Below, in pieces: positions 14,857-36,940 of a stretch of 49,851 nt of DNA. The position numbers and the translations under genes are program-made. The DNA comes from Acidimicrobiaceae bacterium (GTDB lineage: Bacteria; Actinomycetota; Acidimicrobiia; Acidimicrobiales; Aldehydirespiratoraceae). How positions within the stretch are numbered: position 1 is the stretch's first letter; every line of letters begins with the position of its first letter. The stretch is from positions 1 through 49,851 of the forward strand of contig VXWX01000160.1 in NCBI GenBank assembly GCA_009835735.1. Direction: 5' to 3'. The notes below the pieces were generated by a model. That model was not told where the DNA came from and did no database searches. It saw only the letters and a list, made by a program, of their open reading frames with translations.

Positions 14857-16224
14857 TCAGAACAGGGTGAGGTACTGGTCGACCTCTCCTGAGGTGACCA
14901 CATGGTGGTGGGCCAGGAACTCCTCGCGCTTCACCTTCACGTAGTAGTCGCGGTAGGGGCCCTCGGCGGTGTCGCCCAGACCCCGGCCGATCACGTCGTT
15001 GGAGGCGAGCCGATCGGCGGCGTGCAGCAGCGTGGGCGGCAGGGCCTCGATGCCCTTGGCCGCGATCTCCTCCGCCGACAGGGTGTACAGGTTGTCGGTG
15101 TTGGGCTCGCCCGGGTCGAGGTCGCGGTCGATGCCGTCGAGGCCGCAGGCCAGGGTGGCCGCGAACATCAGGTACGGGTTGGCCGCGCCGTCGCCCAGGC
15201 GGATCTCGATGCGGTCGGGCTCGGGCACCCGGATCATCTGGGTGCGGTTGTTGCCCCCGTACACCGCGTAGGCCGGCGCCCAGGTGGCTCCCGAGGTGGG
15301 CGCCCCCACCCCCATGCGCTTGTAGGAGTTCACGATGGGGCACATCACCGCCACCAGCGACGAGGCGTGGTCGATGATCCCTGCGGTGAACTTGTAGGCC
15401 GTGTCGCTCAGGCCCAGGCCCTTGGTGTCGGGCCCGCCGGCGCCCCCGCCGATGAACAGCGGCTCGTCGGTGTCGGCCGACCACAGGCTCGCGTGGATGT
15501 GCAGGCCGTTGCCGGTCTTGTCGGCGAACGGCTTGGGCATGAACGTGGCGTAGCGGCCGTCGCGCTGGGCCAGGGTGTGCACCATCAGCCGGAACAGGAT
15601 GAGCCGGTCAGCGGTGGTGAGCGCGTCGGAGTACTGCCAGTTCTGCTCGTACTGGCCGTTGGCGTCCTCGTGGTCGTTGGCGTAGTTGCCCCAGCCCATG
15701 GCGTCGAGGTTCTTGGACACCGCGGTGAGGTGGGGCAGCATCCGGGTCAGGCCCTTGGCGTCGTAGCAGGGCAGCGACATGGTGTCGCGGTCGTCGGCCA
15801 CCGAGATGGTGCCGTCGTCGTTGCGAACCACAAGCGAGTACTCGGCCTCCACCCCGCACTTGAACACGATGTTGCGCTCGGCGGCCGCCTCCATCGCCCG
15901 GCGCAGGATCACCCTCGGCGCGTACGGCCACAGCTCGCCCTCCACAGTGGGGTCGCACTGCATGGCGGCCACATTGGGCTGCCATGGCAACTGGGTGTAC
16001 GACGCCGGGTCGGGAAGGGCCAGGATGTCGGGGCTGGAGGGATCCTGGCCCATGGGGCCGGCCGCGAAGCCCGCGAAGCCGGCTCCGTCGCTCATCAGTC
16101 CCTCGAGGGCGCCGACGGGCACGAGCTTGGCGCACGGCTTGCCGTGCATCTCCACGAACATGGCGTAGATGAACTCCACGCCGTCGGCCTCCACCCGGCT
16201 CCGGATCTCGTCGAGCGCGCTCAT
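14857..16224 (-). CDS. gmaS: Glutamine-synthetase-family ligase, probable glutamate-methylamine ligase (GMAS)
   Basis: 455 residues from ATG at 16224 with AGGGGGA just upstream. Glutamine synthetase fold, of the GlnT/type III branch: MFVEMHGKPCAKLVPV near the start, VFKCGVEAEYSLV (metal site), NGLHIHASLW, VNSYKRMGVGAPTSGATWAP (ATP site) and RVPEPDRIEIRLGDGAANPY. This branch includes gamma-glutamylmethylamide synthetase, which ligates methylamine to glutamate using ATP, the first step of the N-methylglutamate pathway. The divergently placed mgsABC-like genes encode the next enzyme, the main reason for preferring GMAS over an ammonia-specific ligase. Rhizobial glnT also sits beside glxBCD, so substrate is not certain. 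Confidence 0.85.
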   Translation of the reverse strand: MSALDEIRSRVEADGVEFIYAMFVEMHGKPCAKLVPVGALEGLMSDGAGFAGFAAGPMGQDPSSPDILALPDPASYTQLPWQPNVAAMQCDPTVEGELWPYAPRVILRRAMEAAAERNIVFKCGVEAEYSLVVRNDDGTISVADDRDTMSLPCYDAKGLTRMLPHLTAVSKNLDAMGWGNYANDHEDANGQYEQNWQYSDALTTADRLILFRLMVHTLAQRDGRYATFMPKPFADKTGNGLHIHASLWSADTDEPLFIGGGAGGPDTKGLGLSDTAYKFTAGIIDHASSLVAVMCPIVNSYKRMGVGAPTSGATWAPAYAVYGGNNRTQMIRVPEPDRIEIRLGDGAANPYLMFAATLACGLDGIDRDLDPGEPNTDNLYTLSAEEIAAKGIEALPPTLLHAADRLASNDVIGRGLGDTAEGPYRDYYVKVKREEFLAHHHVVTSGEVDQYLTLF

Positions 16225-16479
16225 GGTTCCCCCTGTGATTGTGCCGTAGTTGGCTGGGTCGCGGCAGCCGAGAGTAGTCAACGATCCCGTTGGGAGGGAA
16301 TTGGCCCTCCTATTGGCGGCGCCGGGCCCAGAGGCCGAGCCTGCGAGGCCGTGGCCCGAGCGGCCCGTGAGCGCAGCGAACAAGAGCGGAAGAGGCTGCC
16401 GGGCTGAGGTCAGGGGCGCGGTGGGCGCTACCGTGCGGGCCGGACTTTGTCAGGTAGAGCACTTCGGGGGACAAGCGGC
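16225..16479 (+). promoter_or_regulatory. Divergent control region between gmaS and mgsABC, with a hairpin/operator candidate
   Basis: 255 bases with no gene on either strand. The clearest structure is a perfect 6-base inverted repeat, GGAGGG at 16293-16298 and CCCTCC at 16305-16310, around an AATTGG centre; it could be an operator serving both directions. TACCGT at 16429-16434 is a possible -10 element for the plus-strand operon. No clear -35 is seen, and no regulator gene is adjacent. On the minus side TTGACT (16281-16276) resembles a -35 but has no -10 at proper distance. Confidence 0.35.
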
Positions 16480-17379
16480 ATGTGCGGGATCGTTGGGTTG
16501 TTCTGCAAGACCGAGACCCACCGCCACGAGCTGGGCCAGCTGACTGCGGTGATGTTGCGCGAGATGCGCGACCGGGGCCCCGACAGCGCCGGGTTCGCGT
16601 CCTACGACGTAGGCCTGCCCGACCGCACCCGCATCACCGTGCTGGCTGAGGGCATCACGGTGGACTGGGGTCCGGTGGCAGCCGCGCTGGAGGGAGTCCT
16701 GGGCGCTGAGGTCACCGTGCGGGCGGTTCATGATCACGCCGTGTTCTCGACCGACGGCGACGGCCGGGCCGCCCGCCAATGGATCATCGACAACGTGGTC
16801 GGGGCCACGGTGCTGAGCTACGGCTCCCAGATCGAGCTGTACAAGGCGGTCGGCGACCCCGACCTGGTGGCCGAGCGCTATGACCTGGCCTCCCGAACCG
16901 GCACTCACGCCTTGGCCCACACCCGCATGGCCACCGAGTCGGCAGTCACCACCAACGGTTCGCACCCGTTCGCCACCGGCGCCGACACCTGCTTGGTGCA
17001 CAACGGGTCACTGTCCAACCACAACCGTCTGCGGCGGTTCCTTGAGGGTCATGGCGAGTCGTTCCAGACGGAGAACGACTCCGAGGTCGCCGCCGGCTAC
17101 CTGGCGTGGCGGATCCGCTCCGGCGACACCATCTCGCAGGCGTTGGAGGGGGCCATCGACGACCTCGACGGCTTCTACACGTTCGCCATCGGCGTGGCCG
17201 ACGGTTTCGCCATCCTGCGTGATCCCATCGCCTGCAAGCCGGCGGTGGTGGCCGAGACTGACGATTGGGTGGCCATGTCGTCGGAGTACCGGGCCATCGC
17301 CCGCCTTCCGGGCGCGGCCGACGCCGAGGTATGGGAGCCCGAGCCGGCCCGCATCTACACCTGGAGCCTGGCCGCATGA
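16480..17379 (+). CDS. mgsA: N-methylglutamate synthase subunit A-like / class II glutamine amidotransferase domain protein
   Basis: 299 residues. The ATG at 16480 places Cys at residue 2 (MCGIVGLFCK), as required for the N-terminal nucleophile amidotransferase family; upstream in-frame codons are therefore not used. Later motifs: EMRDRGPDSAGFASYD, TGTHALAHTRMATES, and DTCLVHNGSLSNH. It corresponds to GlxB/MgsA, the GltB amidotransferase-domain homologue. In N-methylglutamate synthase this subunit would take the methylamine (rather than ammonia) group from gamma-glutamylmethylamide and deliver it to the synthase subunit. Its stop overlaps the next start (ATGA). Divergent from the gmaS-type gene. 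Confidence 0.85.
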   Translation: MCGIVGLFCKTETHRHELGQLTAVMLREMRDRGPDSAGFASYDVGLPDRTRITVLAEGITVDWGPVAAALEGVLGAEVTVRAVHDHAVFSTDGDGRAARQWIIDNVVGATVLSYGSQIELYKAVGDPDLVAERYDLASRTGTHALAHTRMATESAVTTNGSHPFATGADTCLVHNGSLSNHNRLRRFLEGHGESFQTENDSEVAAGYLAWRIRSGDTISQALEGAIDDLDGFYTFAIGVADGFAILRDPIACKPAVVAETDDWVAMSSEYRAIARLPGAADAEVWEPEPARIYTWSLAA

Positions 17380-18098
17380 GCGGTCCGGCGCGGGTGTTCG
17401 ACCTCTCGGAGGTAGGCCGGCGAGACCTAAACCAAGCCCTGCACGACGCCTCCGACGGTGATTCCTTCGAGGTGACCAACCCCCGGGGGGCTCACGCCGT
17501 GGCCTGCGGCATCACCGCCGAGATCGACGTGTTGGTGCGAGGCTCGGTGGGCTACTACTGCGCTGGGATGCACAAGCGGGGCCGGGTGCTGGTGGAGGGC
17601 AACGCCAGCACCGGGCTGGCCGAGAACATCATGTCGGGGCTGGTTCACATCACGGGCAACGCCACCATGTCGGCTGGCGCCACCGGCTGCGGCGGCTTGG
17701 TGGTGGTGGGCGGCAACGCCGGGGCCCGCTGCGGCATCTCCATGAAGGGCGTCGACATCGTCGTCGGGGGCAACGTCGGCCACATGAGCGCGTTCATGGC
17801 CCAGGCCGGGAACCTGGTGGTGTGCGGTGACGCCGCCGCCGACTTGGGTGACTCCATCTACGAGGCGCAGATCTTCGTGCGGGGCGACGTCGAGTCCTTG
17901 GGTGCAGACTGCATCGAGAAGGAGATGCGTCCCACCCACGTCGAGACGCTGTCTCGCCTGCTGGTGGCGGCCGCGGCCGTCCCCGCCGTGAATGGGGCCG
18001 ACCCGGCCGATTTCCGCCGCTACGGATCGGCCCGTCGTCTCTACAACTTCACCATCGACGACGTGGACGCCCTCGAAGCGGCCCAGGAAGCAGCCTGA
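17376..18098 (+). CDS. mgsB: N-methylglutamate synthase subunit B-like (GltB GXGXG-domain protein)
   Basis: 240 residues, almost entirely the right-handed beta-helix GXGXG domain: repeated glycine turns such as VLVRGSVGYYCAGMHKRG, VLVEGNASTGLAENIMSG, VVVGGNAGARCGISMKG and IVVGGNVGHMSAFM. It matches the third GltB domain encoded separately (GlxC/MgsB). It provides structural and channel functions between the amidotransferase and FMN subunits. Starts by ATGA overlap with mgsA, ends by TGATG overlap with mgsC, so the three products are made together. Confidence 0.87.
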   Translation: MSGPARVFDLSEVGRRDLNQALHDASDGDSFEVTNPRGAHAVACGITAEIDVLVRGSVGYYCAGMHKRGRVLVEGNASTGLAENIMSGLVHITGNATMSAGATGCGGLVVVGGNAGARCGISMKGVDIVVGGNVGHMSAFMAQAGNLVVCGDAAADLGDSIYEAQIFVRGDVESLGADCIEKEMRPTHVETLSRLLVAAAAVPAVNGADPADFRRYGSARRLYNFTIDDVDALEAAQEAA

Positions 18099-19462
18099 TG
18101 ACGCCCACGCCATCGCATGACGGCCTTGAGCCCTTGAAGGCCTCGGACCCGGATTTCTGGCACCTGCGGGAGTCGTACACGTTCGACCGCAACGTGATCG
18201 CCGAGATCCGCCGAGCGGCCAACACCGGCATCTATCGCATCCGGGGCTGGGGGGCCAAGCGCCACCTGCCCACCCTCGACGACCTGGTGTTCTTGGGGGC
18301 GTCGATGTCGCGCTATCCCCTGGAGGGCTACCGGGAGGCGTGCGGCACCGATGTGGTGATAGGCGAGGACCGGGCCGAGCGTCCGGTGCACCTGAAGATC
18401 CCGGTGACCATCGCAGGCATGAGCTTCGGGTCGCTGTCGGCCCAGGCCAAGGAGGCCCTCGGCCGGGGCGCGTCGGCGGCGGGGACCTCCACCACCACCG
18501 GCGACGGCGGCATGACCGAGGAGGAGCGCCAGCACTCCGCCACGCTGGTGTACCAGTACCTTCCGTCGCGCTACGGCATGAACCCCGACCATCTGCGGGT
18601 GGCCGACGCCATCGAGGTGGTGGTTGGCCAGGGGGCCAAGCCCGGCGGCGGCGGGATGCTGCTCGGTCAGAAGATCACCGAGCGGGTGGCCGAGATGCGG
18701 ACCCTGCCCGAGGGTATCGACCAGCGTTCAGCGTGCCGCCACCCCGACTGGACCGGCCCAGACGACCTCGAGATCAAGATCGGCGAACTGCGTGAGATCA
18801 CCGACTGGCAGGTGCCGATCTATGTGAAGGTGGGCGCGGCCCGCCCCTACTACGACACTGCGCTAGCGGTGAAGGCCGGCGCCGACGCGGTAGTGGTGGA
18901 CGGCATGCAGGGCGGCACCGCGGCCACCCAGGACGTGTTCATCGAGCATGTCGGCATTCCCACCCTGGCTGCCATAGGCGAGTCGGTGCGGGCCCTGCGG
19001 GAGCTCGGCGTGCACCGCCGGGAGGTGAAGCTCATCGTCGCGGGCGGGATCCGCTCGGGTGCCGACGTGGCCAAGGCGCTGGCCCTGGGCGCCGACGCGG
19101 CCTCCATCGGCACCGCCGCGCTGATCGCCATCGGCGACAACGACCCCGCCTACGAGGCCGAGTACCGGGCCCTGGGAACCTCGGCCGGTTTCTGGGAGGA
19201 CTTCCAGGCGGGCAACGACCCGGTCGGTATCACCACCCAGGATTCTGACCTGTCGGCCCGCCTCGATCCCGTGCTGGCCGGGCGGCGGCTGGCCAACTAC
19301 CTGCAGGTGCTGACCATAGAGACCCAGATCCTGGCCCGGGCCAACGGCAAGTCGCATGTCCTGAACCTGGAGCCCGAGGATCTGGCCGCCCTCACCGTGG
19401 AGGCTGCGGCCATGGCCAAGGTTCCCTTGGCAGGAACCAACTGGGTACCGGGCGTAGACTGA
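18098..19462 (+). CDS. mgsC: N-methylglutamate synthase subunit C-like, FMN glutamate-synthase domain without Fe-S cysteines
   Basis: 454 residues. FMN-binding GltS barrel: PVTIAGMSFGSLSAQAKEAL, TSTTTGDGGMTEEE, GAKPGGGGMLLGQKI, PIYVKVGAARPYYDTAL, VVVDGMQGGTAATQDVF and LIVAGGIRSGADVAKALALG. The reaction expected is reductive transfer of a methylamine group to 2-oxoglutarate. Oddity: in glutamate synthases the segment before PVG(V/I)xTQ carries the cysteines that bind a 3Fe-4S cluster. Here residues 364-375 read AGFWEDFQAGND, with Trp366, Phe369 and Asp374 where Cys would be expected. The whole protein has only two cysteines, both in the N-terminal half. How electrons reach the FMN is therefore unclear. 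Third gene of the mgs operon, 50 bases before the FAD/GcvT dehydrogenase. Confidence 0.85.
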   Translation: MTPTPSHDGLEPLKASDPDFWHLRESYTFDRNVIAEIRRAANTGIYRIRGWGAKRHLPTLDDLVFLGASMSRYPLEGYREACGTDVVIGEDRAERPVHLKIPVTIAGMSFGSLSAQAKEALGRGASAAGTSTTTGDGGMTEEERQHSATLVYQYLPSRYGMNPDHLRVADAIEVVVGQGAKPGGGGMLLGQKITERVAEMRTLPEGIDQRSACRHPDWTGPDDLEIKIGELREITDWQVPIYVKVGAARPYYDTALAVKAGADAVVVDGMQGGTAATQDVFIEHVGIPTLAAIGESVRALRELGVHRREVKLIVAGGIRSGADVAKALALGADAASIGTAALIAIGDNDPAYEAEYRALGTSAGFWEDFQAGNDPVGITTQDSDLSARLDPVLAGRRLANYLQVLTIETQILARANGKSHVLNLEPEDLAALTVEAAAMAKVPLAGTNWVPGVD

Positions 19463-25710: not shown

Positions 25711-25809
25711 TTCCGCTTCCGGCTACCTGAGGGGCCGCGCCGCAACTACACTCCCGGTTCGCCGCGGCCGACCGACGCGGCTCGAGTGCGCACACCTTCG
25801 GGAGGGGCC

Positions 25810-28275
25810 GTGACACAAGAGGCGCGGTGCGTGATCATCGGCGGCGGGGCCATGGGGGTCGGCCTGCTGTACTACCTGGCCCATGAGGGCTGGACCGACA
25901 CCATCCTGCTGGAGAAGGGGGAGCTGACTTCAGGGTCCACCTGGCACGCGGCCGGGCTGATCCCCAACTTCATCGGCGATCTGAACATGGCCAAGGTCCA
26001 CGAGGAGGCAGTGGCCCTGTATCCCCGTCTCGAGGAGGAGACCGGGCTGTCGGCTGGCTGGCACGGATGCGGAGCCATCCGGTTGGCCCGCACCGACGAC
26101 GAGGTCGACTGGCACCGCTACGTGCACGCCATGCTCACCCAGGTCGGCATCGAGTCGCACCTGATCGGCCCGACCGAGATCCGCGAGCGCCATCCGCTGT
26201 TGGAGGACCTCAGCGACATCCAGCTCGGGTTCTACACCCCCAACGACGGCTGGACCGACCCGTCGGGCTGCACCAACGCCATGGCCCGGGGCGCCCGCAA
26301 CCTCGGCTGCGAGATACGGCGCCACACGCTGGTGACCGACATGAGTCAACTGCCCGACGGGCGCTGGGAGATCATCGCCACCCCCGGCGGTATGAGCGGC
26401 AAGGGCGCTGGCGACAGCTACCGGATCGTGTGCGAGCACGTTGTGAACGCGGCCGGCCACTACGCCCCCCAGCTCGGGGCCATGGTCGGCCTGGACGTGC
26501 CCATCGTCTCGGTGATCCACCAGTACCTGGTCACCGAGCCCCTCCAGGCCATGATCGACCTCGGCTACGAGCCTCCCGTGACCCGCGACCCCCGGTCCTC
26601 GTGCTACTACCGCCGGGAGATCGACGGCCTGCTGGTCGGCCCCTACGAGATGTCCGACTCCAGGGTGTACGGCGTCGAGGGCATCGACTGGGCCCACGAC
26701 TTCCACCTCACCGGCGAGAACGTCGACGTGCTCGAGGAATGCCTGGAGTACACCGTCATGCGCATCCCCGCCTTCGCCGAGGCCGGCATCAAGCAGATCG
26801 TGTCCGGCCCGATCACCCACACCCCCGATTCCGGGTACCTGATGGGACCCGCGCCGGGGCTGCGCAACTACTGGCACTGCAACGGCGCCTCCATCGGCAT
26901 CACCCAGGGTCCCGGCGCGGGCAAGTACCTGGCCCAGTGGATGATCCACGGTCAGACCGAGATCAACGTCCGGGGCATGGATCCCCGCCGCTTCGGGGAC
27001 CACAGCGGGCCCAAGTCGGTCTTCGCCATAGCCAAGGCCCACGACGAGTACCACGAGATGTACCAGGTGCGCCTGCCGGGCGAGTTCCGGGCCGCGGGGC
27101 GACCCCAGAAGACCGACCCCATCTACGACCGCCTCGACCGTCTGGGCGCCCAGTGGCAGGAGGTGTACGGCTGGGAGCGGCCCCAGTACTACTCGCCCAA
27201 CGGGACGGGCGAGCGGCACTCGTTCCGCCGCTCCAACGCCTTCGATCCGGTCGGGGCCGAGGTGCGGGGAGTGCGCGAGCGGGTCGGGATCGCCGACATC
27301 ACCGCCTTCGCCTCCTTCGAAGTGACCGGTGCCGACGCGGCCGCATTGCTCGATCGCCTGTCGGCCAACCGCCTTCCGGCCCGCGACGGAGGCATCCGGC
27401 TGACGCACATGCTCACCGACTTGGGCGGCATCGAGTGCGAGATGACCATCGCCCGCCTGGCGGCCGACCGCTTCTATCTGACCTCGGCCATCATGGGCCA
27501 GAGCCACGACCTCGACTGGCTGGAGCAGCACATCGGAGATGGCGAAGATGTGACCGCGGTCGACGTCACCGACTCCACCGGGATCCTGGCGGTGACCGGA
27601 CCCCGGGCCCGCGACGTGTTGGCGGAGCTGACCGACGCCGACCTGGGCAACGAGGCGTTCCGGTGGCTGACCGCGGCCGAGATCGGCGTCGCGGGCGTGC
27701 CGTGCCTGGCCCTGCGGGTGTCGTACGTGGGGGAGCTGGGCTGGGAGCTGCACTGCGACATGGATCGGCTGGCCGAGCTGTACGACGCGGTGGTGGCCGC
27801 CGGCGAGCCCCACGGCATGGTCCACTTCGGCAGCTACGCCATGAACGTCATGCGCATCGAGAAGGGCTACAAGGCGTGGGGCTCGGAGCTCACCACTGAG
27901 ATCACCCCGATCGAGGCTCGCCTCGAGCGCTTCATCGACCTCAACCGGCCGTTCATCGGCCGCGACGCCACCGTGGCCCGGCGCGACCAGGCCGAGCCGC
28001 TGTCGATGGTGCTGGTGTACTGCGAGGTGGACGCCACCGACAACGACGTGCGCGGCAATGAGCCGGCTTTCGACGCGGACGGCAACGTCATGGGCATCGC
28101 CACCAGCGGCACCTGGGGCCACACCGTGGGTCGCAGCCTGGCCTTCGTGTATGTGGCCCCGGACTTCGAGGCGCCCGGATCGACATTCGAGCTCGACTTG
28201 CTGGGGGAGCGCCGGGTATGCACCGTGCTGGCCGAGCCGGCCTACGACCCGGCCAACATGGCCCCCCGCGCATGA
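25810..28275 (+). CDS. FAD/GcvT-type dehydrogenase (dimethylglycine dehydrogenase-like), second copy
   Basis: 821 residues from GTG at 25810, chosen because GGGAGGGG precedes it; an ATG-type start 24 bases upstream lacks a ribosome site. Domains: FAD/DAO (residues 5-390; RCVIIGGGAMGVGLLYYLAH), FAO-type linker, GcvT and barrel (about 430-815; RVSYVGELGWELH, MRIEKGYKAWGSE). His46 in SGSTWHAAG is the expected covalent FAD attachment. It is clearly a paralogue of the 19513 gene but diverged (WHGCGAIRLA versus CRTPGSISVA at the same place), so different substrates are likely. It is part of the operon Rieske, small membrane protein, dehydrogenase, MttB-like, ferredoxin, and could take the dimethylated product onward, placing C1 on folate. 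Confidence 0.9.
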   Translation: MTQEARCVIIGGGAMGVGLLYYLAHEGWTDTILLEKGELTSGSTWHAAGLIPNFIGDLNMAKVHEEAVALYPRLEEETGLSAGWHGCGAIRLARTDDEVDWHRYVHAMLTQVGIESHLIGPTEIRERHPLLEDLSDIQLGFYTPNDGWTDPSGCTNAMARGARNLGCEIRRHTLVTDMSQLPDGRWEIIATPGGMSGKGAGDSYRIVCEHVVNAAGHYAPQLGAMVGLDVPIVSVIHQYLVTEPLQAMIDLGYEPPVTRDPRSSCYYRREIDGLLVGPYEMSDSRVYGVEGIDWAHDFHLTGENVDVLEECLEYTVMRIPAFAEAGIKQIVSGPITHTPDSGYLMGPAPGLRNYWHCNGASIGITQGPGAGKYLAQWMIHGQTEINVRGMDPRRFGDHSGPKSVFAIAKAHDEYHEMYQVRLPGEFRAAGRPQKTDPIYDRLDRLGAQWQEVYGWERPQYYSPNGTGERHSFRRSNAFDPVGAEVRGVRERVGIADITAFASFEVTGADAAALLDRLSANRLPARDGGIRLTHMLTDLGGIECEMTIARLAADRFYLTSAIMGQSHDLDWLEQHIGDGEDVTAVDVTDSTGILAVTGPRARDVLAELTDADLGNEAFRWLTAAEIGVAGVPCLALRVSYVGELGWELHCDMDRLAELYDAVVAAGEPHGMVHFGSYAMNVMRIEKGYKAWGSELTTEITPIEARLERFIDLNRPFIGRDATVARRDQAEPLSMVLVYCEVDATDNDVRGNEPAFDADGNVMGIATSGTWGHTVGRSLAFVYVAPDFEAPGSTFELDLLGERRVCTVLAEPAYDPANMAPRA

Positions 28276-28296
28276 CGGCGCGAGGAGGTGACGTCG

Positions 28297-29835
28297 ATGG
28301 CTGACCAAGAAGGAGGCCGGCGTCGGGGCGGTGGCCGGGCCGGTCGCATCGCGGCTCGCCAAGCACCGCTGGAAGCCGATGCCCGGCCGGTGCGACCAGG
28401 GATGCCCGGCGGCAAGTTCGCCCCCTTGAGGGAGTCCGATATGCAGCAGGTGTACGACACCGCGCTGGCGCTGCTCGAAGACGTCGGCATGGGCTCGCCC
28501 ATCGAGGAGTTCGTCGACGTTGTCACCGCGGCCGGCGGCCATGTCGACGACGCCGAACGCCTGCACTACCCGAAGGGTTTGGTGGAAGGCGCCATCGCCA
28601 CCGCGGCCAAGGAGTGGGTCTGGCACGGCTTCGACGACGACCGGTCGATCACCGTGGGCGGCGACCGGGTCCATTTCGGCACCGCCGGCGCCGCGGTCCT
28701 CATGTACGACCACGTCGACGGGATTTTCCGTCCCTCCACCGCGGTGGACGTCTACGACTGCGCCCGCCTGGTGGACTTCCTCGACAACATCCACTTCTTC
28801 GTCCGCACCGTCGTGGCCCGCGACATGGAGGATGCCCGGCTGCTCGACCTCAACACCGCCTACGCGGCCATGGTGGGCACCACCAAGCCCATCGGCACGT
28901 CGTGGTTCGAGCGCGAGCATGTGTACGAGACGGTGGACATGTTCGACATGGCCCTGGGCGGGCCCGGCGAGTTCCGCAAGCGACCGTTCGTGGCGGCCAA
29001 CAACACGTTCGTGGTGCCGCCGCTGCGCTTCGCCGAGGAGTCGGCGAGGGCCATGGTGGCCCAGGTCGAGACGGGCATGCCCATCAACCTGCTGTCGGCC
29101 GGGCAGGCCGGGGCCACCTCGCCTGCGGCGCTGGCCGGGTCGCTGGCCCAGGCTCTGGCCGAGTGCCTGGCCGCGCTGACCGGGGTGAACCTGCTGAGCC
29201 CGGGCCATCCGTGCGTGATGGGCATGTGGCCGTTCGTGTCGGACCTGCGCACCGGCGCCATGAGCGGCGGCTCGGGCGAGGAGGGCATCCTCAATGCGGC
29301 CGCAGCCCAGTTGCTCAACTGGATCGGCTTGCCTTCGGGGGTGGCCGCCGGCATGGCCGACTCCAAGGTCCCCGACAACCAGACCGGCTACGAGAAGGGC
29401 ATCAACATCACGCTGGCCGGCCACGCCGGGGCCAACCTGGTGTACGAGTCGGCCGGGATGCTGGCCAGCATCCTGAGCTGCTCGCTGGAGGCCCTGGTGA
29501 TCGACAACGACATGCTCGGCTCGATCAACCGCACCGTGAGGGGCATCGAGGTGAACGAGGAGACCCTGTCGGCCGAGCTGATCGCGGAGGTGGTGTCGGG
29601 GCCCGGCCACTTCCTGGGCTCGCCCCAGACGCTGGACCTGATGCAGCGGGAGTACGTCTACCCCGAGATCGGCGACCGCGACACCCCCGACAACTGGCTC
29701 GACGCCGGAGGCAAGGACTCGCGGGACCGGGCCCACGAGTACGTGCAGCGGGTGCTGGCCGAGCACCGCCCGACCCACATCAGCGCCGAGACCGACGCCC
29801 GCATCCGGGCCGCCTTCCCGATCCACCTACCGTAA
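28297..29835 (+). CDS. MttB-family (trimethylamine/glycine betaine:corrinoid-type) methyltransferase without pyrrolysine
   Basis: 512 residues from ATG at 28297, behind GAGGAGGTG. TIM-barrel MttB family: MQQVYDTALALLEDVGMGSP near the start, ANNTFVVPPLRFAEES, LLSAGQAGATSPAALAGSLA, KGINITLAGHAGANLVYESA, and VSGPGHFLGSPQTLDLMQRE near the end. The frame has no internal TAG, so it is the non-pyrrolysine branch, whose studied members (MtgB and relatives) demethylate glycine betaine, proline betaine or carnitine and pass the methyl group to a corrinoid protein. No corrinoid protein or second methyltransferase is in the window. The N-terminal ~30 residues are Arg/Gly-rich. It lies 21 bases after the dehydrogenase gene and 24 before the ferredoxin gene. 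Confidence 0.87.
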   Translation: MADQEGGRRRGGGRAGRIAARQAPLEADARPVRPGMPGGKFAPLRESDMQQVYDTALALLEDVGMGSPIEEFVDVVTAAGGHVDDAERLHYPKGLVEGAIATAAKEWVWHGFDDDRSITVGGDRVHFGTAGAAVLMYDHVDGIFRPSTAVDVYDCARLVDFLDNIHFFVRTVVARDMEDARLLDLNTAYAAMVGTTKPIGTSWFEREHVYETVDMFDMALGGPGEFRKRPFVAANNTFVVPPLRFAEESARAMVAQVETGMPINLLSAGQAGATSPAALAGSLAQALAECLAALTGVNLLSPGHPCVMGMWPFVSDLRTGAMSGGSGEEGILNAAAAQLLNWIGLPSGVAAGMADSKVPDNQTGYEKGINITLAGHAGANLVYESAGMLASILSCSLEALVIDNDMLGSINRTVRGIEVNEETLSAELIAEVVSGPGHFLGSPQTLDLMQREYVYPEIGDRDTPDNWLDAGGKDSRDRAHEYVQRVLAEHRPTHISAETDARIRAAFPIHLP

Positions 29836-32324: not shown

Positions 32325-32458
32325 TGGGGAATCGCCAGTGTACGTCGTGGTCGCGCCAGGAAGCTACGGGTTGGAGCCGGCGTCCTTGGGAGCCTGTGGG
32401 TGACGGTGCTGGTCGCTGCGTCCGCTATACACATACGGTCACCCCGAAGGGAGTCCGA

Positions 32459-33484
32459 GTGACCCGCAAGCCCGACCCGTTCACCGTCCCGTTCGGGACC
32501 GTCCTGTGCGACTGGATGACCATCGCTCGCGCCGACGGCGGGGCTTACGTCTACGGTGGATCACCCGAGCCCTACCAGGACCACTCGATCAGCCCGGCCG
32601 CGCACGCGCTGCACTACGCCAGCGCGATCTTCGAGGGCCTCAAGGCCCATCGCCAGGATGACGGTTCGCTGGCGGTGTTCCGCCTCGACCGTCACATCGA
32701 GCGGATGGCGACCAGTGCGGCACTGCTGCGACTGCCCCAAATCGATCCCGGCACGCTGCGCCGGATGATCGTCGACTCGGTGGAGGCCAACGCGTCGGAG
32801 GTCCCCGATCCGCCGGGCTCGCTGTACATCCGCCCGACCCTGGTCGGCACCGATCCCGACATCGGCGCGGCCGCCCGCCCGTCCCGCAGCGCCCTGCTGT
32901 ACGTGGTGAACAGCCCGGTCGGCGACTACTTCAAGGGCGGAGTGCGGCCGCTCACCCTGCTGTTGGAGACGTCGGTGCCGCGTACCGTGCCCAAGTTCGG
33001 CATGGTCAAGTGCGGTGCCAACTACGCCATGGCTTTGGGTGTGACTCTGGACTCGATGGCCGCCAGCGAAGCAATCGACCAGATCTTGTTCGCCACCAAC
33101 AACGACATCACCGAGACGGGTGCCGCCAATTTCTTCCTCGCCGACGACGAGCGGGTGGTCACCCGGCACTTGGACGAGTCCTTCCTTCACGGGATCACCC
33201 GGGCCTCGGTGATCGAGCTAGCGGATTACCTCGGCTACCAGGTCGAGGAACGCACGATCCATCCCGACGAGCTGGTCGACTGGGCCGAGCGGGGTGAGGC
33301 CTTCCTGACCGGCACGGCCGCGGTTCTGGCGCCGGTGGGCAGCATCGTCCATGACGGCGAGACGCTCACGTTCGGCGGCGGCCAGCCGGGCCGCAACGCC
33401 ATGAGGCTGCGCCAAGCGCTCGTCGACATCCAGGTGGGGGCGGCACCGGACCCGTTCGGCTGGCGCACCCCCGTCCAAGGCTGA
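32459..33484 (+). CDS. ilvE: Branched-chain amino acid aminotransferase
   Basis: 341 residues from GTG at 32459, preceded by AAGGGAG; the in-frame upstream extension has no ribosome site and no family similarity. Fold type IV PLP enzyme: ALHYASAIFEGLKAHR at the substrate pocket, SLYIRPTLVGTDPDIGA, KFGMVKCGANYAMAL with the Schiff-base Lys, and ITETGAANFFLADDERVV. It transfers the amino group between glutamate and leucine, isoleucine or valine. Alone, not in an ilv operon. TATACA at 32426-32431 is a possible -10. Confidence 0.93.
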   Translation: MTRKPDPFTVPFGTVLCDWMTIARADGGAYVYGGSPEPYQDHSISPAAHALHYASAIFEGLKAHRQDDGSLAVFRLDRHIERMATSAALLRLPQIDPGTLRRMIVDSVEANASEVPDPPGSLYIRPTLVGTDPDIGAAARPSRSALLYVVNSPVGDYFKGGVRPLTLLLETSVPRTVPKFGMVKCGANYAMALGVTLDSMAASEAIDQILFATNNDITETGAANFFLADDERVVTRHLDESFLHGITRASVIELADYLGYQVEERTIHPDELVDWAERGEAFLTGTAAVLAPVGSIVHDGETLTFGGGQPGRNAMRLRQALVDIQVGAAPDPFGWRTPVQG

Positions 33485-33523: not shown

Positions 33524-35875
33524 ATGGCCCATCGGGCCGCTCCGCCACCCTATTCTGCTGGCACGACGGCTACGCGTTCTGTGGTGCTGGTGGTGTCGAT
33601 CGACGGGTTGGCCCCGCGCCATGTCACTCGCGCCACCATGCCCGCGCTCACCACCCTCGCTCTTGAGGGGGCTTCCTGCTTCGCTGCTCGCACCGTCACC
33701 CCGCCGACGACCCTGCCGGTTCACACATCGATGCTGCGGGGCGTCGCCCCGTCCACCCACGGGCTGTACAGCAACACACCGGCACCGCTGCGCACCGACG
33801 CCCCCTCGTTCCTTCAAGCGGCCCGCGACGCCGGTCGGTCGACTGCGATCTTCATCAACTGGCTGCCGCTGGACGCGGTGATCGAGCGGGAGGCGGCCGG
33901 GCAGCGGTTCGTTGTCGACGGCGGCTATGACCCGGACGAGGACCGCCGCTGCGTAGACGCCGCCGTCGCGGCCGTGGAAGGCGGCTGCTGCGACGTTGTG
34001 TTCGTCTATCTGGTGCGTCCCGATCTCGCCGGTCACGCCTACGGCTGGGACAGTGCCGAGTACGCGGCTGCGGTCACCCGATCGGACAGGGAGCTGGCCC
34101 GGTTGCTTGACGCGGTGGGCCCGGAGGCGTCCGTGTTGGTGACCACCGATCATGGGGGTCTCGGCACCGGACACGCCGACGAGGTTCCCGATGTTATGGA
34201 GACGTTCGTCGTGGTGCGGGCACCGGGCCGGATTTCGGCCGGTTCGGGCTGGCCGGTTGCGTCGCCACTGGATGTCGCTCCCACGGTTGCCGGCCTGTGC
34301 GGGTTCGGGCCTGATCCTCGCTGGGAGGGGTCGTCGCTGCTGGGCCGGGAGCTTCCGCTGGTAGAGGTCGTGCTGGATCTGCTGGCCGCCATGGCGCAGG
34401 AGACCTACGGCGAGCGGGTGACGATGCTCGACCACGCGCTGCAGTCCGCGGCGCTCGCCGCGTCGGACGGTGCCGGTGACGAGATGGTGCTCGCCTGCCT
34501 CCTGCACGACCTAGGTCACGTCCTCGACCGGGCCGGGCAGTGGGGTCTGCCCGGCCATGCCGAGGTCGGGGCCCGGGCCCTGCAGCCGGTTCTGTCTCCC
34601 GCCATCGTCGAGCCCATCCGGGGCCACGTCACCGCCAAGCGGTACCGCGTGGCCGTCGAGCCGGACTACCACGATCGCCTCAGCCTCGCTTCGAGGATGT
34701 CGTTGACCCAACAGGGAGGCCCTCTGGCGGCGGGCGACGCCGAGGCGTTCGCGGCGGGCGCGTTCGCTGCGGATGCGGTGCGGCTGAGGGGCTACGACGA
34801 CCGAGGCAAGGTCGACGGCTTCGCAGTCCCTGCGCTCGAGACCTACCGCGGCCTGATCACAGCCGCCCTCGCGCCGGAACGCCCGATCGACCCGTCGTGG
34901 GCGAGGGATGCCTGCCGTTGCGCCTCGTGCCGCGATCCGGGCAACGATCAGCACTTGATCGATGCGTCGGTGCTCGACGGGTGGACAGTGGTCCGCACTG
35001 ACCGGACCGGCGACGAATTGACCGTAACCCTGCACCACCGTTCGGGCGAGCGGCACGTCTGCCGCATCCCCACCGCAGAGCCCGGCGACCTGTCCGCCGA
35101 GCCGTGGGTGCCGGCGTTCGCCGAGCAGCTGCGGGCCGGCAGCACGAGCTGGACCGGCGATCATGGTCCGTTCGTCGATCAGCTGGCCCGGTGGGGCATC
35201 GCCCTGCTTCACGACTGCGGGGTCGAGCCGGGAACGGTCCTAGAGGTCGGCAACACGATCGGGTTCGTGCGGGAAACCAACTACGGCTCCCTCTTTGATG
35301 TCGTCGCTGAGCCCGACCCCGTCAATCTCGCCTTCACGCCACTCGCTCTGCCCGCCCACACCGACAACCCCTACCGGGAGCCGTGCCCGACCGCGCAGCT
35401 GCTGCACTGCCTGGCCGCGGCGAACGGCGGCGGCGCGAGCCGGTTCGTCGACGGCTTCGCCGCCGCTGCGCTGCTCCGAGCGGAGGATCCCACCGCGTTC
35501 GAGACGCTCACCACTACCGACGTGACGTTCCGCTATCGCAGCGCCGGCGTGGATCTGCAAGCCCGGCGTCCCCTGATCGAACTCGACTGCGACGGCGCCG
35601 TACGGGCCGTGAGCGTCAACAACCGCTCCATGGAGTCGTTGGGGGCCGACCGGGCCGAGACGGCGACGTTCTACGGCGCCTACCGCGTCCTGGTCGATCT
35701 TCTCGAGCGCGACGACATCGGGATCGAGATCGCCCTGCGGCCCGGTGAGCTGGTGGCGTTCGACAATCGCCGCGTGCTGCACGGTCGGCGGGCCTTCCGG
35801 GTGACCGAGCGCCGGCACCTGCAGGGGTGCTACATCGACATGGACGCCATCCGTTCGGCGGCACGACTGATGTAG
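33524..35875 (+). CDS. Three-enzyme fusion: phosphodiesterase + PhnZ/TmpB-like HD oxygenase + TmpA/GBBH-like dioxygenase
   Basis: 783 residues, three complete domains. (1) Residues ~18-285: alkaline-phosphatase-superfamily nucleotide pyrophosphatase/phosphodiesterase, metal ligands Asp27, Asp167, His171, Asp209, His210, His217 and nucleophile Thr63. (2) Residues ~288-445: HD domain with His304, His328-Asp329, His345, His368, Asp425; spacings match the di-iron oxygenase PhnZ (34, 58/59, 80, 104, 161) apart from one shorter loop and one base step, and Lys372, Ser390 and Arg422 fall at PhnZ phosphonate contacts as I remember them. (3) Residues ~455-525: GBBH N-terminal zinc domain (Cys464, Cys466, Cys469); ~540-775: TauD/GBBH 2-oxoglutarate dioxygenase, iron ligands His612, Asp614, His753. 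TmpA and TmpB, separate proteins of types 3 and 2, turn 2-(trimethylammonio)ethylphosphonate into glycine betaine and phosphate. Methylphosphonate (PhnY*/PhnZ1) is the alternative substrate. A GTG start at 33581 is also possible. Confidence 0.85.
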   Translation: MAHRAAPPPYSAGTTATRSVVLVVSIDGLAPRHVTRATMPALTTLALEGASCFAARTVTPPTTLPVHTSMLRGVAPSTHGLYSNTPAPLRTDAPSFLQAARDAGRSTAIFINWLPLDAVIEREAAGQRFVVDGGYDPDEDRRCVDAAVAAVEGGCCDVVFVYLVRPDLAGHAYGWDSAEYAAAVTRSDRELARLLDAVGPEASVLVTTDHGGLGTGHADEVPDVMETFVVVRAPGRISAGSGWPVASPLDVAPTVAGLCGFGPDPRWEGSSLLGRELPLVEVVLDLLAAMAQETYGERVTMLDHALQSAALAASDGAGDEMVLACLLHDLGHVLDRAGQWGLPGHAEVGARALQPVLSPAIVEPIRGHVTAKRYRVAVEPDYHDRLSLASRMSLTQQGGPLAAGDAEAFAAGAFAADAVRLRGYDDRGKVDGFAVPALETYRGLITAALAPERPIDPSWARDACRCASCRDPGNDQHLIDASVLDGWTVVRTDRTGDELTVTLHHRSGERHVCRIPTAEPGDLSAEPWVPAFAEQLRAGSTSWTGDHGPFVDQLARWGIALLHDCGVEPGTVLEVGNTIGFVRETNYGSLFDVVAEPDPVNLAFTPLALPAHTDNPYREPCPTAQLLHCLAAANGGGASRFVDGFAAAALLRAEDPTAFETLTTTDVTFRYRSAGVDLQARRPLIELDCDGAVRAVSVNNRSMESLGADRAETATFYGAYRVLVDLLERDDIGIEIALRPGELVAFDNRRVLHGRRAFRVTERRHLQGCYIDMDAIRSAARLM

Positions 35876-35926
35876 CATGCGATGCCTGGGAGACGGTCCG
35901 GATCAATGAGGGGAGGTCGGGTTCCC

Positions 35927-36940
35927 ATGACGGAGGCAAGCTCGACTGTTGGCAAGTCGCCGAGTCCCGGGGCGAGGGGTTTCGAGCCGGACGTTCCCAT
36001 CACGGTTTCGCCGATACTGGACTGGCCGCCGCGGCCGGCGGCGACGCTGCGGCACATCTTCTCGATGATGCTGCCCCAGGGGCTGCTCTGGGTGGGCATC
36101 GCCGCGGTGGCGTGGAACTTCTTCACTCCGTCGATGGAGCGCATGGCGACCCTGAGCCCGAGATGGGTTCTCGAGATCTACGCCCGCAACGTCGTGATGT
36201 TCACCTTGGTGGCGGGAACGCTGCATGTGGCGCTGTACGTCCGGCGGGCCCAGCAGCAGCGCTACAAGTACGAGCGCCAGTGGCTGAGCACCACCAACCG
36301 GGAGTTCCTGTGGAACAACCAGACCCGCGACAACATCTTCTGGTGCCTGGTCAGCGGCTGCTCGGTGTGGACCGCCTATGAGGCGCTCACCATGTGGTTC
36401 TACGCCAACGGCTGGATCCCGCAGGTGGATTGGAGCTCGGGGTGGCTCTACCTGTCGGCGCTCACCGTGTTCACGTCGCTGTGGTCGGTGACCCACTTCT
36501 ACTTCATCCACCGGGTGCTGCACACGCGCTGGGTGTACGACCATGTCCACTACCTGCATCACCGCAACGTCAACCCGGGGCCCTGGAGCGGCCTGTCGAT
36601 GCACCCGGTGGAGCACATGATGTACCTCAGCATGTTCGTGCTGTGGTGGGTGGTGCCTGCGCACCCGTTCATCCTGATCCTCACCCTGTCGTCCAACAGC
36701 ATCGCCACCGCGGTGACCCACTCGGGTTTCGAGCGCTACGAGATCGGCCGGCGCGGGGGACGCTCCATGAAGGGCGCCGACTACTTCCACCACCTGCACC
36801 ACCGGTACTTCGAGTGCAACTACGGCAACCGGCCCGTGCCGCTGGACAGGCTGTTCGGCACCTTCCACGACGGCACGCCCGAGGCCCACGCCCGGATGCG
36901 CCAGCGGATGAAGGCCCGCCGCGCCGCCCGAACCCGCTGA
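35927..36940 (+). CDS. Sterol desaturase / fatty acid hydroxylase superfamily protein
   Basis: 337 residues from ATG at 35927, preceded by GGGGAGGT; an upstream ATG at 35882 lacks one. Integral membrane di-iron enzyme with several hydrophobic spans (about residues 45-65, 85-105, 140-165, 185-205, 235-260) and the His clusters of the family: HFYFIHRVLH, HYLHHRN, HPVEH and HHLHHRYFECNYG. These enzymes hydroxylate or desaturate lipid C-H bonds using O2. It begins 51 bases after the fusion gene, same strand, so a lipid-related role next to a phosphonate/phosphodiester enzyme is plausible, for instance phosphonolipid processing. Substrate cannot be read from sequence. Confidence 0.85.
   Translation: MTEASSTVGKSPSPGARGFEPDVPITVSPILDWPPRPAATLRHIFSMMLPQGLLWVGIAAVAWNFFTPSMERMATLSPRWVLEIYARNVVMFTLVAGTLHVALYVRRAQQQRYKYERQWLSTTNREFLWNNQTRDNIFWCLVSGCSVWTAYEALTMWFYANGWIPQVDWSSGWLYLSALTVFTSLWSVTHFYFIHRVLHTRWVYDHVHYLHHRNVNPGPWSGLSMHPVEHMMYLSMFVLWWVVPAHPFILILTLSSNSIATAVTHSGFERYEIGRRGGRSMKGADYFHHLHHRYFECNYGNRPVPLDRLFGTFHDGTPEAHARMRQRMKARRAARTR

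Follow-up and report, generated by a model that had tools for sequence, protein, structure and literature searches.

We report a fused protein in which a phosphodiesterase-like domain stands in one chain with two oxygenase-like domains resembling TmpB and TmpA. It is encoded by a gene at positions 33524 to 35875 of a 49,851-nucleotide stretch of DNA from an uncultured actinobacterium of the Acidimicrobiaceae (contig VXWX01000160.1), hereafter the window. With slightly better than an even chance, in our estimate, it is a cytosolic trifunctional enzyme that would free 2-trimethylaminoethylphosphonate (TMAEP) from an ester and convert it to phosphate and glycine betaine. TMAEP is the phosphonate twin of phosphocholine. 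Loci and genomes used in the comparisons carry our own L and G handles, and papers are cited by PMC number.

Three domains in one reading frame

The gene and its parts are laid out as follows.

33524..35875, + strand: whole fusion gene NPP-HD-TauD, 783 aa; frame uninterrupted, no internal stop
33575..34348, + strand: NPP-like alkaline-phosphatase-superfamily domain, residues 18-275 (Pfam, alignments, model, Foldseek); D27, T63 (nucleophile by analogy), N84, D167, H171, D209, H210, H217
34361..34873, + strand: HD-domain di-iron oxygenase-like domain, residues 280-450 (profiles, fold, tree, alignment); H304, H328-D329, H345, H368, D425; loop Tyr295/Glu297
34889..35872, + strand: TauD/GBBH-type Fe(II)/2-oxoglutarate oxygenase domain, residues 456-783 (profiles, fold, tree, alignment); Fe triad H612, D614, H753; cage Y587, F591, F604, Y770; phosphonate site N601, N700, R701
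34913..34930, + strand: C464-x-C466-xx-C469, a zinc-knuckle-like motif as in human gamma-butyrobetaine hydroxylase (GBBH)
35624..35626, + strand: codon of R701, counterpart of the phosphonate-binding TmpA R288

Pfam placed Phosphodiest (PF01663) at residues 21-215 (82.9 bits, cut-off 23), HD (PF01966) at 303-368 (23.2 bits, a marginal pass over the cut-off of 22) and TauD (PF02668) at 552-770 (144.8 bits, cut-off 27). The initial annotation of this DNA had described a single uninterrupted 783-residue frame with three domains and had listed their metal and catalytic residues; the frame was borne out, with all three domains found in order, and every listed residue occupies the position assigned to it and is conserved among the fusions. 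The zinc role of the C-x-C-xx-C motif is known from GBBH.

Residues 1-17 were unconserved, both in the alignment of fusions and in a comparison with six relatives, so the true start of the protein may lie slightly later. Accordingly, no export signal common to the fusions is seen, which fits cytosolic iron enzymes. The predicted model of the whole protein reached a mean predicted local distance difference test (pLDDT) of 87.8 and a predicted template-modelling score (pTM) of 0.73, a value at which the packing of the domains, and with it channelling between them, is not settled by the model.

Recurrence and selection

A genome_contigs pattern scan, which requires short exact peptide matches and is not exhaustive, returned 15 loci. 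Ten were full-length single-frame fusions (L002-L007, L009-L012) from metagenome-assembled genomes of Acidimicrobiales/Acidimicrobiaceae, at 45-91% identity. The others comprised a copy truncated by a contig end (L008), a TauD end alone at a contig start (L013), a partial HD-TauD copy (L014) and two gammaproteobacterial loci with separate genes (L015, L016). The partial copy, at L014 6436-7526, gave no NPP match and is missing part of TauD; genes located 0.6 kb ahead of this remnant share 53-87% identity with window 14902-19462 and include relatives of the synthase genes listed further below.

Of 51 genomes from the same family as the window, 20 gave a match at E <= 1e-60, and a full-length single-frame fusion was present in 13, a count that includes the window's genome; the architecture that the initial annotation had proposed looking for in other genomes is indeed found there. 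In a sample of the class, a single-frame fusion was present in five of 296 genomes (again counting the window's own; that of G008 reaches only residue 762) and some match, mostly to a single domain, in 94, these counts being lower bounds because three candidates per genome were scored. Another member of the sample, G271, additionally carries a fusion split across contigs. Genome counts overlap, as one genome may appear under two handles.

Among the fusions, identity fell as low as 47% for the NPP domain, 47% for HD and 41% for TauD. Simple ratios of nonsynonymous to synonymous substitution (dN/dS), computed for the window copy against six relatives, were 0.13-0.35, 0.11-0.29 and 0.16-0.31, respectively; all three domains are under purifying selection. 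The metal and catalytic residues were conserved throughout the 15-row fusion alignment (row L008 stops before H753). An assembly chimera, or a decaying gene without function, might be suspected from the state of the window's genome, a draft of 167 contigs that is 84% complete and holds one fusion copy. This explanation is vanishingly improbable and was refuted by the data: the same single-frame layout recurs across the family genomes and dN/dS is well below 1 in all three domains, so the fusion is no chance joining or artefact.

The TauD domain resembles TmpA

Among NCBIfam models the TauD domain matched TmpA first, with 308.7 bits, and gamma-butyrobetaine dioxygenase (BBOX) with 252.3 bits. 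Its best sequence match in the PDB was likewise TmpA (6npb, 5.6e-57, versus 8.6e-36 for BBOX), and 6npb also ranked first when the predicted domain was searched with Foldseek (1.3e-27). The HxD...H facial triad for iron is complete in the fusion.

The phosphonate contacts described are N187, N287 and R288 for TmpA and two Asn for human BBOX (PMC9296572). The PDB chain of TmpA is numbered 6 ahead of that paper for all three contacts; by alignment each has a counterpart in the window protein, namely N601, N700 and R701. The arginine R701, also present in TmpA, was kept in all 16 fusion or fragment rows spanning that stretch (14 plus L013 and L014). Among unfused TauD proteins, Arg occupied this position in 13 of 15 that adjoin an HD gene (the exceptions being L029 with Lys and L036 with Gln) and in one of eight with no detected HD neighbour (L027 only), counts that leave out the duplicate or cut rows L006, L008, L019, L046 and L047 and rest on flanks of about 1.5 kb (L026-L044) or 3 kb (L072-L075), within which an adjoining HD gene could be missed. 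BBOX has Ala here. At the positions of the trimethylammonium cage, which we presume from BBOX, the alignment sets Y587, F591, F604 and Y770 of the fusion against Y, F, Y and Y of TmpA. Thus the quaternary-amine pocket of TmpA, whose absence the initial annotation had named as a test of its idea, is kept as far as sequence can tell, together with the phosphonate-binding Arg.

A midpoint-rooted tree of 39 TauD rows (L006, L008, L013, L014, L019, L046 and L047 left out) united 14 fusions in one clade (support 100/100) within a 30-row group (97/96). That group also holds TmpA, split Acidimicrobiia pairs and other Arg-bearing proteins, and Arg is found in all of its rows except L029. The nine rows outside it, GBBH-like proteins and BBOX, are without Arg; six of the nine were flagged as long branches. 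On this tree the proteins labelled TmpA need two changes, the Embleya row being placed apart. A plain gamma-butyrobetaine hydroxylase is disfavoured for the TauD domain by both the tree and R701.

The HD domain groups with TmpB

Profile scores of the HD domain were 168.5 bits for Phn-HD, its best match, 128.1 for PhnZ1 and 119.4 for TmpB. Foldseek with the domain model retrieved PhnZ chains at TMt 0.82-0.91 and TmpB chains at 0.82-0.83, so that the fold searches agree with a likeness of the central domain to PhnZ/TmpB and of the last domain to TmpA. The pattern H...HD...H...H...D is the di-iron ligand motif (PMC8177086); its six residues, H304, H328, D329, H345, H368 and D425, are present in the window protein and kept in every fusion row.

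In a tree of 45 HD rows (L006, L008, L013, L019, L046, L047 and six divergent HD rows left out; PhnZ and TmpB rows partial), the fusions formed a moderately supported clade (89/92) with split Acidimicrobiia proteins and TmpB. Outside it fell PhnZ, HD genes adjoining phnX or C-P lyase (carbon-phosphorus lyase), and stand-alone Acidimicrobiia HDs. The two trees thus place HD with TmpB and TauD with TmpA, among the phosphonate oxygenases where the initial annotation had expected them. The tree disfavours a PhnZ type, acting on 2-aminoethylphosphonate (AEP), for the HD domain. A PhnZ1 (methylphosphonate) type, which has no row in the tree, was judged by its score (128.1 bits, cut-off 300).

Six divergent HD proteins (L063 6725-7321, L015, L016, L026, L029, L036) adjoin TauD proteins and keep the iron ligands. 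They are without the Lys/Ser/QGG motifs of PhnZ/TmpB, and the TauD neighbour bears the Arg in four of the six (L029 has Lys, L036 Gln). Possibly they represent an undescribed branch of HD oxygenases.

The NPP domain and its free relatives

Modelled alone with AlphaFold, the NPP domain reached pLDDT 95.3 and pTM 0.94. Foldseek listed Xac NPP first, followed by choline sulfatase, other sulfatases and ENPPs (ENPP1 at TMq up to 0.82). D27, N84, D167, H171, D209, H210 and H217 were invariant in all 21 aligned NPP rows; T63 was conserved in the 15 fusion rows, and five free NPP relatives have Thr or Ser in its place. The PF01663 score and the alkaline-phosphatase-superfamily metal and nucleophile residues accord with an NPP-type domain of putative diesterase activity. 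A PhnA-type phosphonoacetate hydrolase was rejected, as it gave 28 bits over residues 20-84 and was not among the 50 best folds listed.

The nearest solved structures being nucleotide pyrophosphatases, the imported conjugate might be a nucleotide, CMP-TMAEP or CMP-AEP (CMP, cytidine monophosphate), and the domain a true nucleotide pyrophosphatase acting before oxidation. Nucleotidyl activation is moreover common in phosphonate biosynthesis (PMC6697681). Nevertheless, identity to the listed NPP structures is only 13-18%, and we judge this reading quite improbable. To our knowledge, CMP-phosphonates are biosynthetic intermediates and not known import substrates.

Free relatives of the domain offer a view of its possible partners. 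A search with the NPP domain alone matched 10 of 396 genomes of a phylum sample at E <= 1e-15; three were Acidimicrobiia fusions, and the remaining seven matches were other proteins, 31-35% identical, with no HD/TauD match in the fetched stretch. On a Labrenzia plasmid (L056), tmpA and tmpB are followed by a free relative of the NPP domain with 25% identity across 215 residues, and these partners pass the curated cut-offs (TmpA 577.5 bits against 400, TmpB 351.8 bits against 300). Free NPP relatives also adjoin ABC importers in Meiothermus (35% identity, the best plasmid match), P. aeruginosa and Enterococcus faecium; the binding proteins of these three importers match aminoethylphosphonate models best, at scores far below cut-off. 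In Pararhizobium such a relative adjoins a binding-protein gene. These importer- or binding-protein-linked alkaline-phosphatase-family genes lie at L060 6989-7798, L061 6989-7813, L062 6019-6795 and L059 6989-7828.

Evidence against the proposed pathway

Several observations weigh against a TMAEP-degrading trifunctional enzyme. The TauD domain, at the score given above, stays under the curated TmpA cut-off (NF049936, 400), and the HD domain under all of its own (Phn-HD TIGR03276, 214.6; PhnZ1, 300; TmpB NF049941, 300). A single-sequence score puts the HD domain slightly closer to PhnZ than to TmpB, and the grouping with TmpB falls short of the tree tool's mark of 95/80. Compared with the YxxE substrate loop of PhnZ/TmpB, that of the fusions lacks one residue and reads YGE (YRE in L004) instead of YxGE, with Tyr and Glu kept; most stand-alone Acidimicrobiia HDs have a loop of this same shortened length. 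N700, which corresponds to N287 of TmpA, is replaced by H, K or P in L004, L011, L012, L014, L020 and L021. No free NPP gene was present at the tmpAB plasmid loci L055, L057, L058, L064 and L065, leaving one positive among six distinct loci (judged on plasmid records, taking the three Labrenzia plasmids as one locus; TmpA and TmpB model scores were obtained for L056 alone, the others being assigned by identity and tree), nor did one adjoin the unfused TauD-HD pairs L084-L087. Presence of the fusion is patchy, in six of 16 genomes of the genus. Finally, the family member G672 has a free NPP gene (51-52% identity), with TauD and HD together on another contig.

The claim of the initial annotation that the protein holds both oxygenases of TMAEP breakdown is too strong as a statement of family membership, since both domains fall short of the curated TmpA and TmpB cut-offs. 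Its placing of the phosphodiesterase in the same pathway gains from the unfused Labrenzia operon and loses from the five other plasmid tmpAB loci that have no third gene. We file the protein as TmpA-like plus TmpB-like plus NPP-like and place it in neither the TmpA nor the TmpB equivalog family.

The low profile scores also bear on whether the oxygenase pair acts on another substrate, such as dimethyl-AEP, trimethylaminopropylphosphonate or 2-AEP. That the fusions form their own deep clade in both trees would suit such a shift, as would the shortened HD loop and the variable N700. The cage positions and the phosphonate Arg are nevertheless as in TmpA, and we regard a different substrate as improbable.

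The free gene of G672 bears on the NPP domain, which may have a use of its own, given that this gene sits apart from the TauD-HD pair. The free copy (L083, G672:C154, 5068-5868) ends near the NPP/HD boundary of the fused protein and has intact active-site residues; a DAO/GCV_T gene follows it directly, and cobW precedes it by 2.6 kb. HD and TauD could accordingly degrade TMAEP while NPP acts in parallel on choline-type phosphate esters (glycerophosphocholine, phosphocholine) or another phosphodiester, as parts of a choline-headgroup scavenger. The ENPP-type and choline-sulfatase folds among the closest structures fit this idea, as does a P. aeruginosa plasmid (L063), whose Arg-bearing TauD gene and divergent HD gene stand beside choline uptake and oxidation genes with no NPP gene in the fetched stretch. 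On the other hand, free NPP relatives recur beside aminoethylphosphonate-like importers and once directly behind tmpA-tmpB, and the fusion to oxygenases has been kept over wide divergence, which suggests that NPP and the oxygenases perform consecutive steps. We find parallel action unlikely, though less so than the other alternatives, and favour sequential action on a TMAEP ester.

Genomic neighbourhood

The genes of interest around the fusion are these.

32396..33484, + strand: branched-chain aminotransferase-type gene, 39 bp upstream of the fusion; directly upstream in L002 and L003 too
35882..36940, + strand: fatty-acid-hydroxylase-family protein, 6 bp downstream of the fusion
28288..29835, + strand: MttB-superfamily methyltransferase (possible betaine/methylamine demethylation)
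25786..28275, + strand: DAO + GCV_T protein (dimethylglycine/sarcosine dehydrogenase-like)
16447..19462, + strand: GATase / GXGXG / Glu_synthase gene trio, which we take to be N-methylglutamate-synthase-like

About 4-17 kb separate the fusion from the upstream MttB-family, DAO/GCV_T, Rieske and N-methylglutamate-synthase-like genes, of which the Rieske gene scored 127 bits with the GbcA model (cut-off 670). The initial annotation had linked the fusion to these demethylation genes. The link is plausible, but, among the loci compared over 10 kb upstream, only L002 shares the MttB-side neighbourhood with the window; it was not seen in L004, L005, L008, L009 and L010, and the L003 contig begins at the aminotransferase gene. 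A polyamine-type ABC importer adjoins the fusions of L007 and L009 and the fusion fragment of L013, and a relative of its binding protein, at 50% identity, is encoded elsewhere in the window's own genome. Such neighbourhoods would suit glycine betaine as the product without proving it.

The fatty-acid-hydroxylase gene is not tightly linked, since in L002 and L003 it is 3.3 kb from the fusion. There (L002 12392-15610, L003 3643-6861) an OmpR/PhoB-like regulator and two glutamine-synthetase-family genes, identified by Pfam on L002 and by homology for L003, intervene; they are absent from that place in the window. A conserved regulator beside the fusions was considered and rejected, since no common cluster united the 233-aa neighbours of L002/L003 with those of L006/L010/L018. 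A conserved gene family lies about 2 kb upstream of four fusions (L006 444-1397, L007 305-1258, L009 7153-8088, L010 6977-7930); in L009 Pfam identifies it as a CobW/COG0523 GTPase, perhaps a metal chaperone. On the - strand of the window, 25930-29826, a 1298-codon open frame runs antisense to the DAO/GCV_T and MttB genes and most likely results simply from the high G+C content of coding sequence.

Discussion

The chemistry of TmpA and TmpB, and a two-part fungal fusion, PhoF, were already known (PMC10574752). With the TmpA and TmpB of Leisingera caerulea the window protein has in common the fold, the iron ligands, the TmpA cage positions and phosphonate Arg, and the tree placement. It differs in that those are two separate proteins (PMC10574752) with no NPP domain, that TmpA is without the C-x-C-xx-C motif, and that the fusion stays under both equivalog cut-offs. 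PhoF of Fonsecaea multimorphosa is the nearest precedent: it likewise combines two oxygenases for C-P cleavage, one using 2-oxoglutarate and one of HD type, in a single polypeptide, yet it is fungal, has two parts and acts on AEP and 3-aminopropylphosphonate (PMC10574752).

The window fusion, in contrast to PhoF, runs HD then TauD, uses an oxygenase of TmpA type and has the extra NPP domain. In PhoF the oxygenase, a PhyH-type PhnY, precedes HD. The PhnY*/PhnZ system (for AEP) and GmPhnY/GmPhnZ (for methylphosphonate) have the same HD fold, ligands and kind of C-P cleavage, but their hydroxylase partner is from another family, PhyH, and the HD domain of the fusion groups with TmpB rather than PhnZ. 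The NPP family (Xac NPP, ENPPs) and phosphonate monoester hydrolases share with the first domain the superfamily core, the Thr nucleophile position, the Asn and the two-metal residues; the domain of the fusion is set apart by its compact size of about 260 aa, a third His 7 residues after the DH pair, fusion to oxygenases and no sign of export. The tmpA-tmpB-'alkaline phosphatase family' operon of Labrenzia sp. THAF187b has one gene for each of the three parts, with overlaps between the genes, but it is unfused and in the order TauD-HD-NPP; the papers that we found do not describe it as a pathway.

In the literature searched, with most subscription papers, including those on TmpA/TmpB (2019) and PhoF (2022), outside its scope, we found neither a three-part protein nor an NPP-type partner of TmpA/TmpB. 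The available excerpts of a paper on AEP transporters (PMC8316502) do not mention 'phosphatase' or 'TmpA', and those of a paper on sponge Acidimicrobiia with a PhnCDE/PhnA-type phosphonate pathway (PMC12263773) name no three-part protein.

In the mechanism that we propose, the NPP-type domain, with its Thr nucleophile and two metal ions, would first hydrolyse the P-O-C ester of an imported TMAEP conjugate, for example glyceryl-TMAEP from a phosphonolipid. The C-terminal TauD domain would then hydroxylate C1 of TMAEP using Fe(II), O2 and 2-oxoglutarate, and the central HD domain, as a mixed-valent di-iron oxygenase, would act on the hydroxylated product, breaking its C-P bond to yield phosphate and glycine betaine; tree, residues and model point to both activities. 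Fusion would hold the three activities in fixed ratio and may allow intermediates to be handed on, and the glycine betaine would subsequently be demethylated. We infer the substrate TMAEP, the order of steps, ester hydrolysis by NPP and the use of betaine. More tentatively, at somewhat less than an even chance, the protein would be a dedicated one-protein pathway, spread through uncultured Acidimicrobiales, that mineralises ester-bound choline-type phosphonates such as the head group of phosphatidylcholine analogues or glyceryl esters.

In marine dissolved organic matter, part of the phosphonate is described as polysaccharide esters of methyl- and hydroxyethylphosphonate, not of TMAEP, and alkaline-phosphatase-like hydrolases have been postulated to free ester-bound phosphonates (PMC5649143). 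How the ester is removed ahead of C-P cleavage is unsettled, and the fusion is a candidate for that step, tied to trimethylated aminoethylphosphonate. If the proposal is true, it names the de-esterification step before oxidative C-P cleavage, and the protein would be, as far as our searches show, the first three-part phosphonate-degrading fusion. It would also provide a compact system for studying how a hydroxylated phosphonate passes from one iron oxygenase to another of a different kind. A TmpA/TmpB-like oxidative route would thereby extend to the Acidimicrobiales, and such an enzyme would make phosphorus in a recalcitrant form accessible to microbes.

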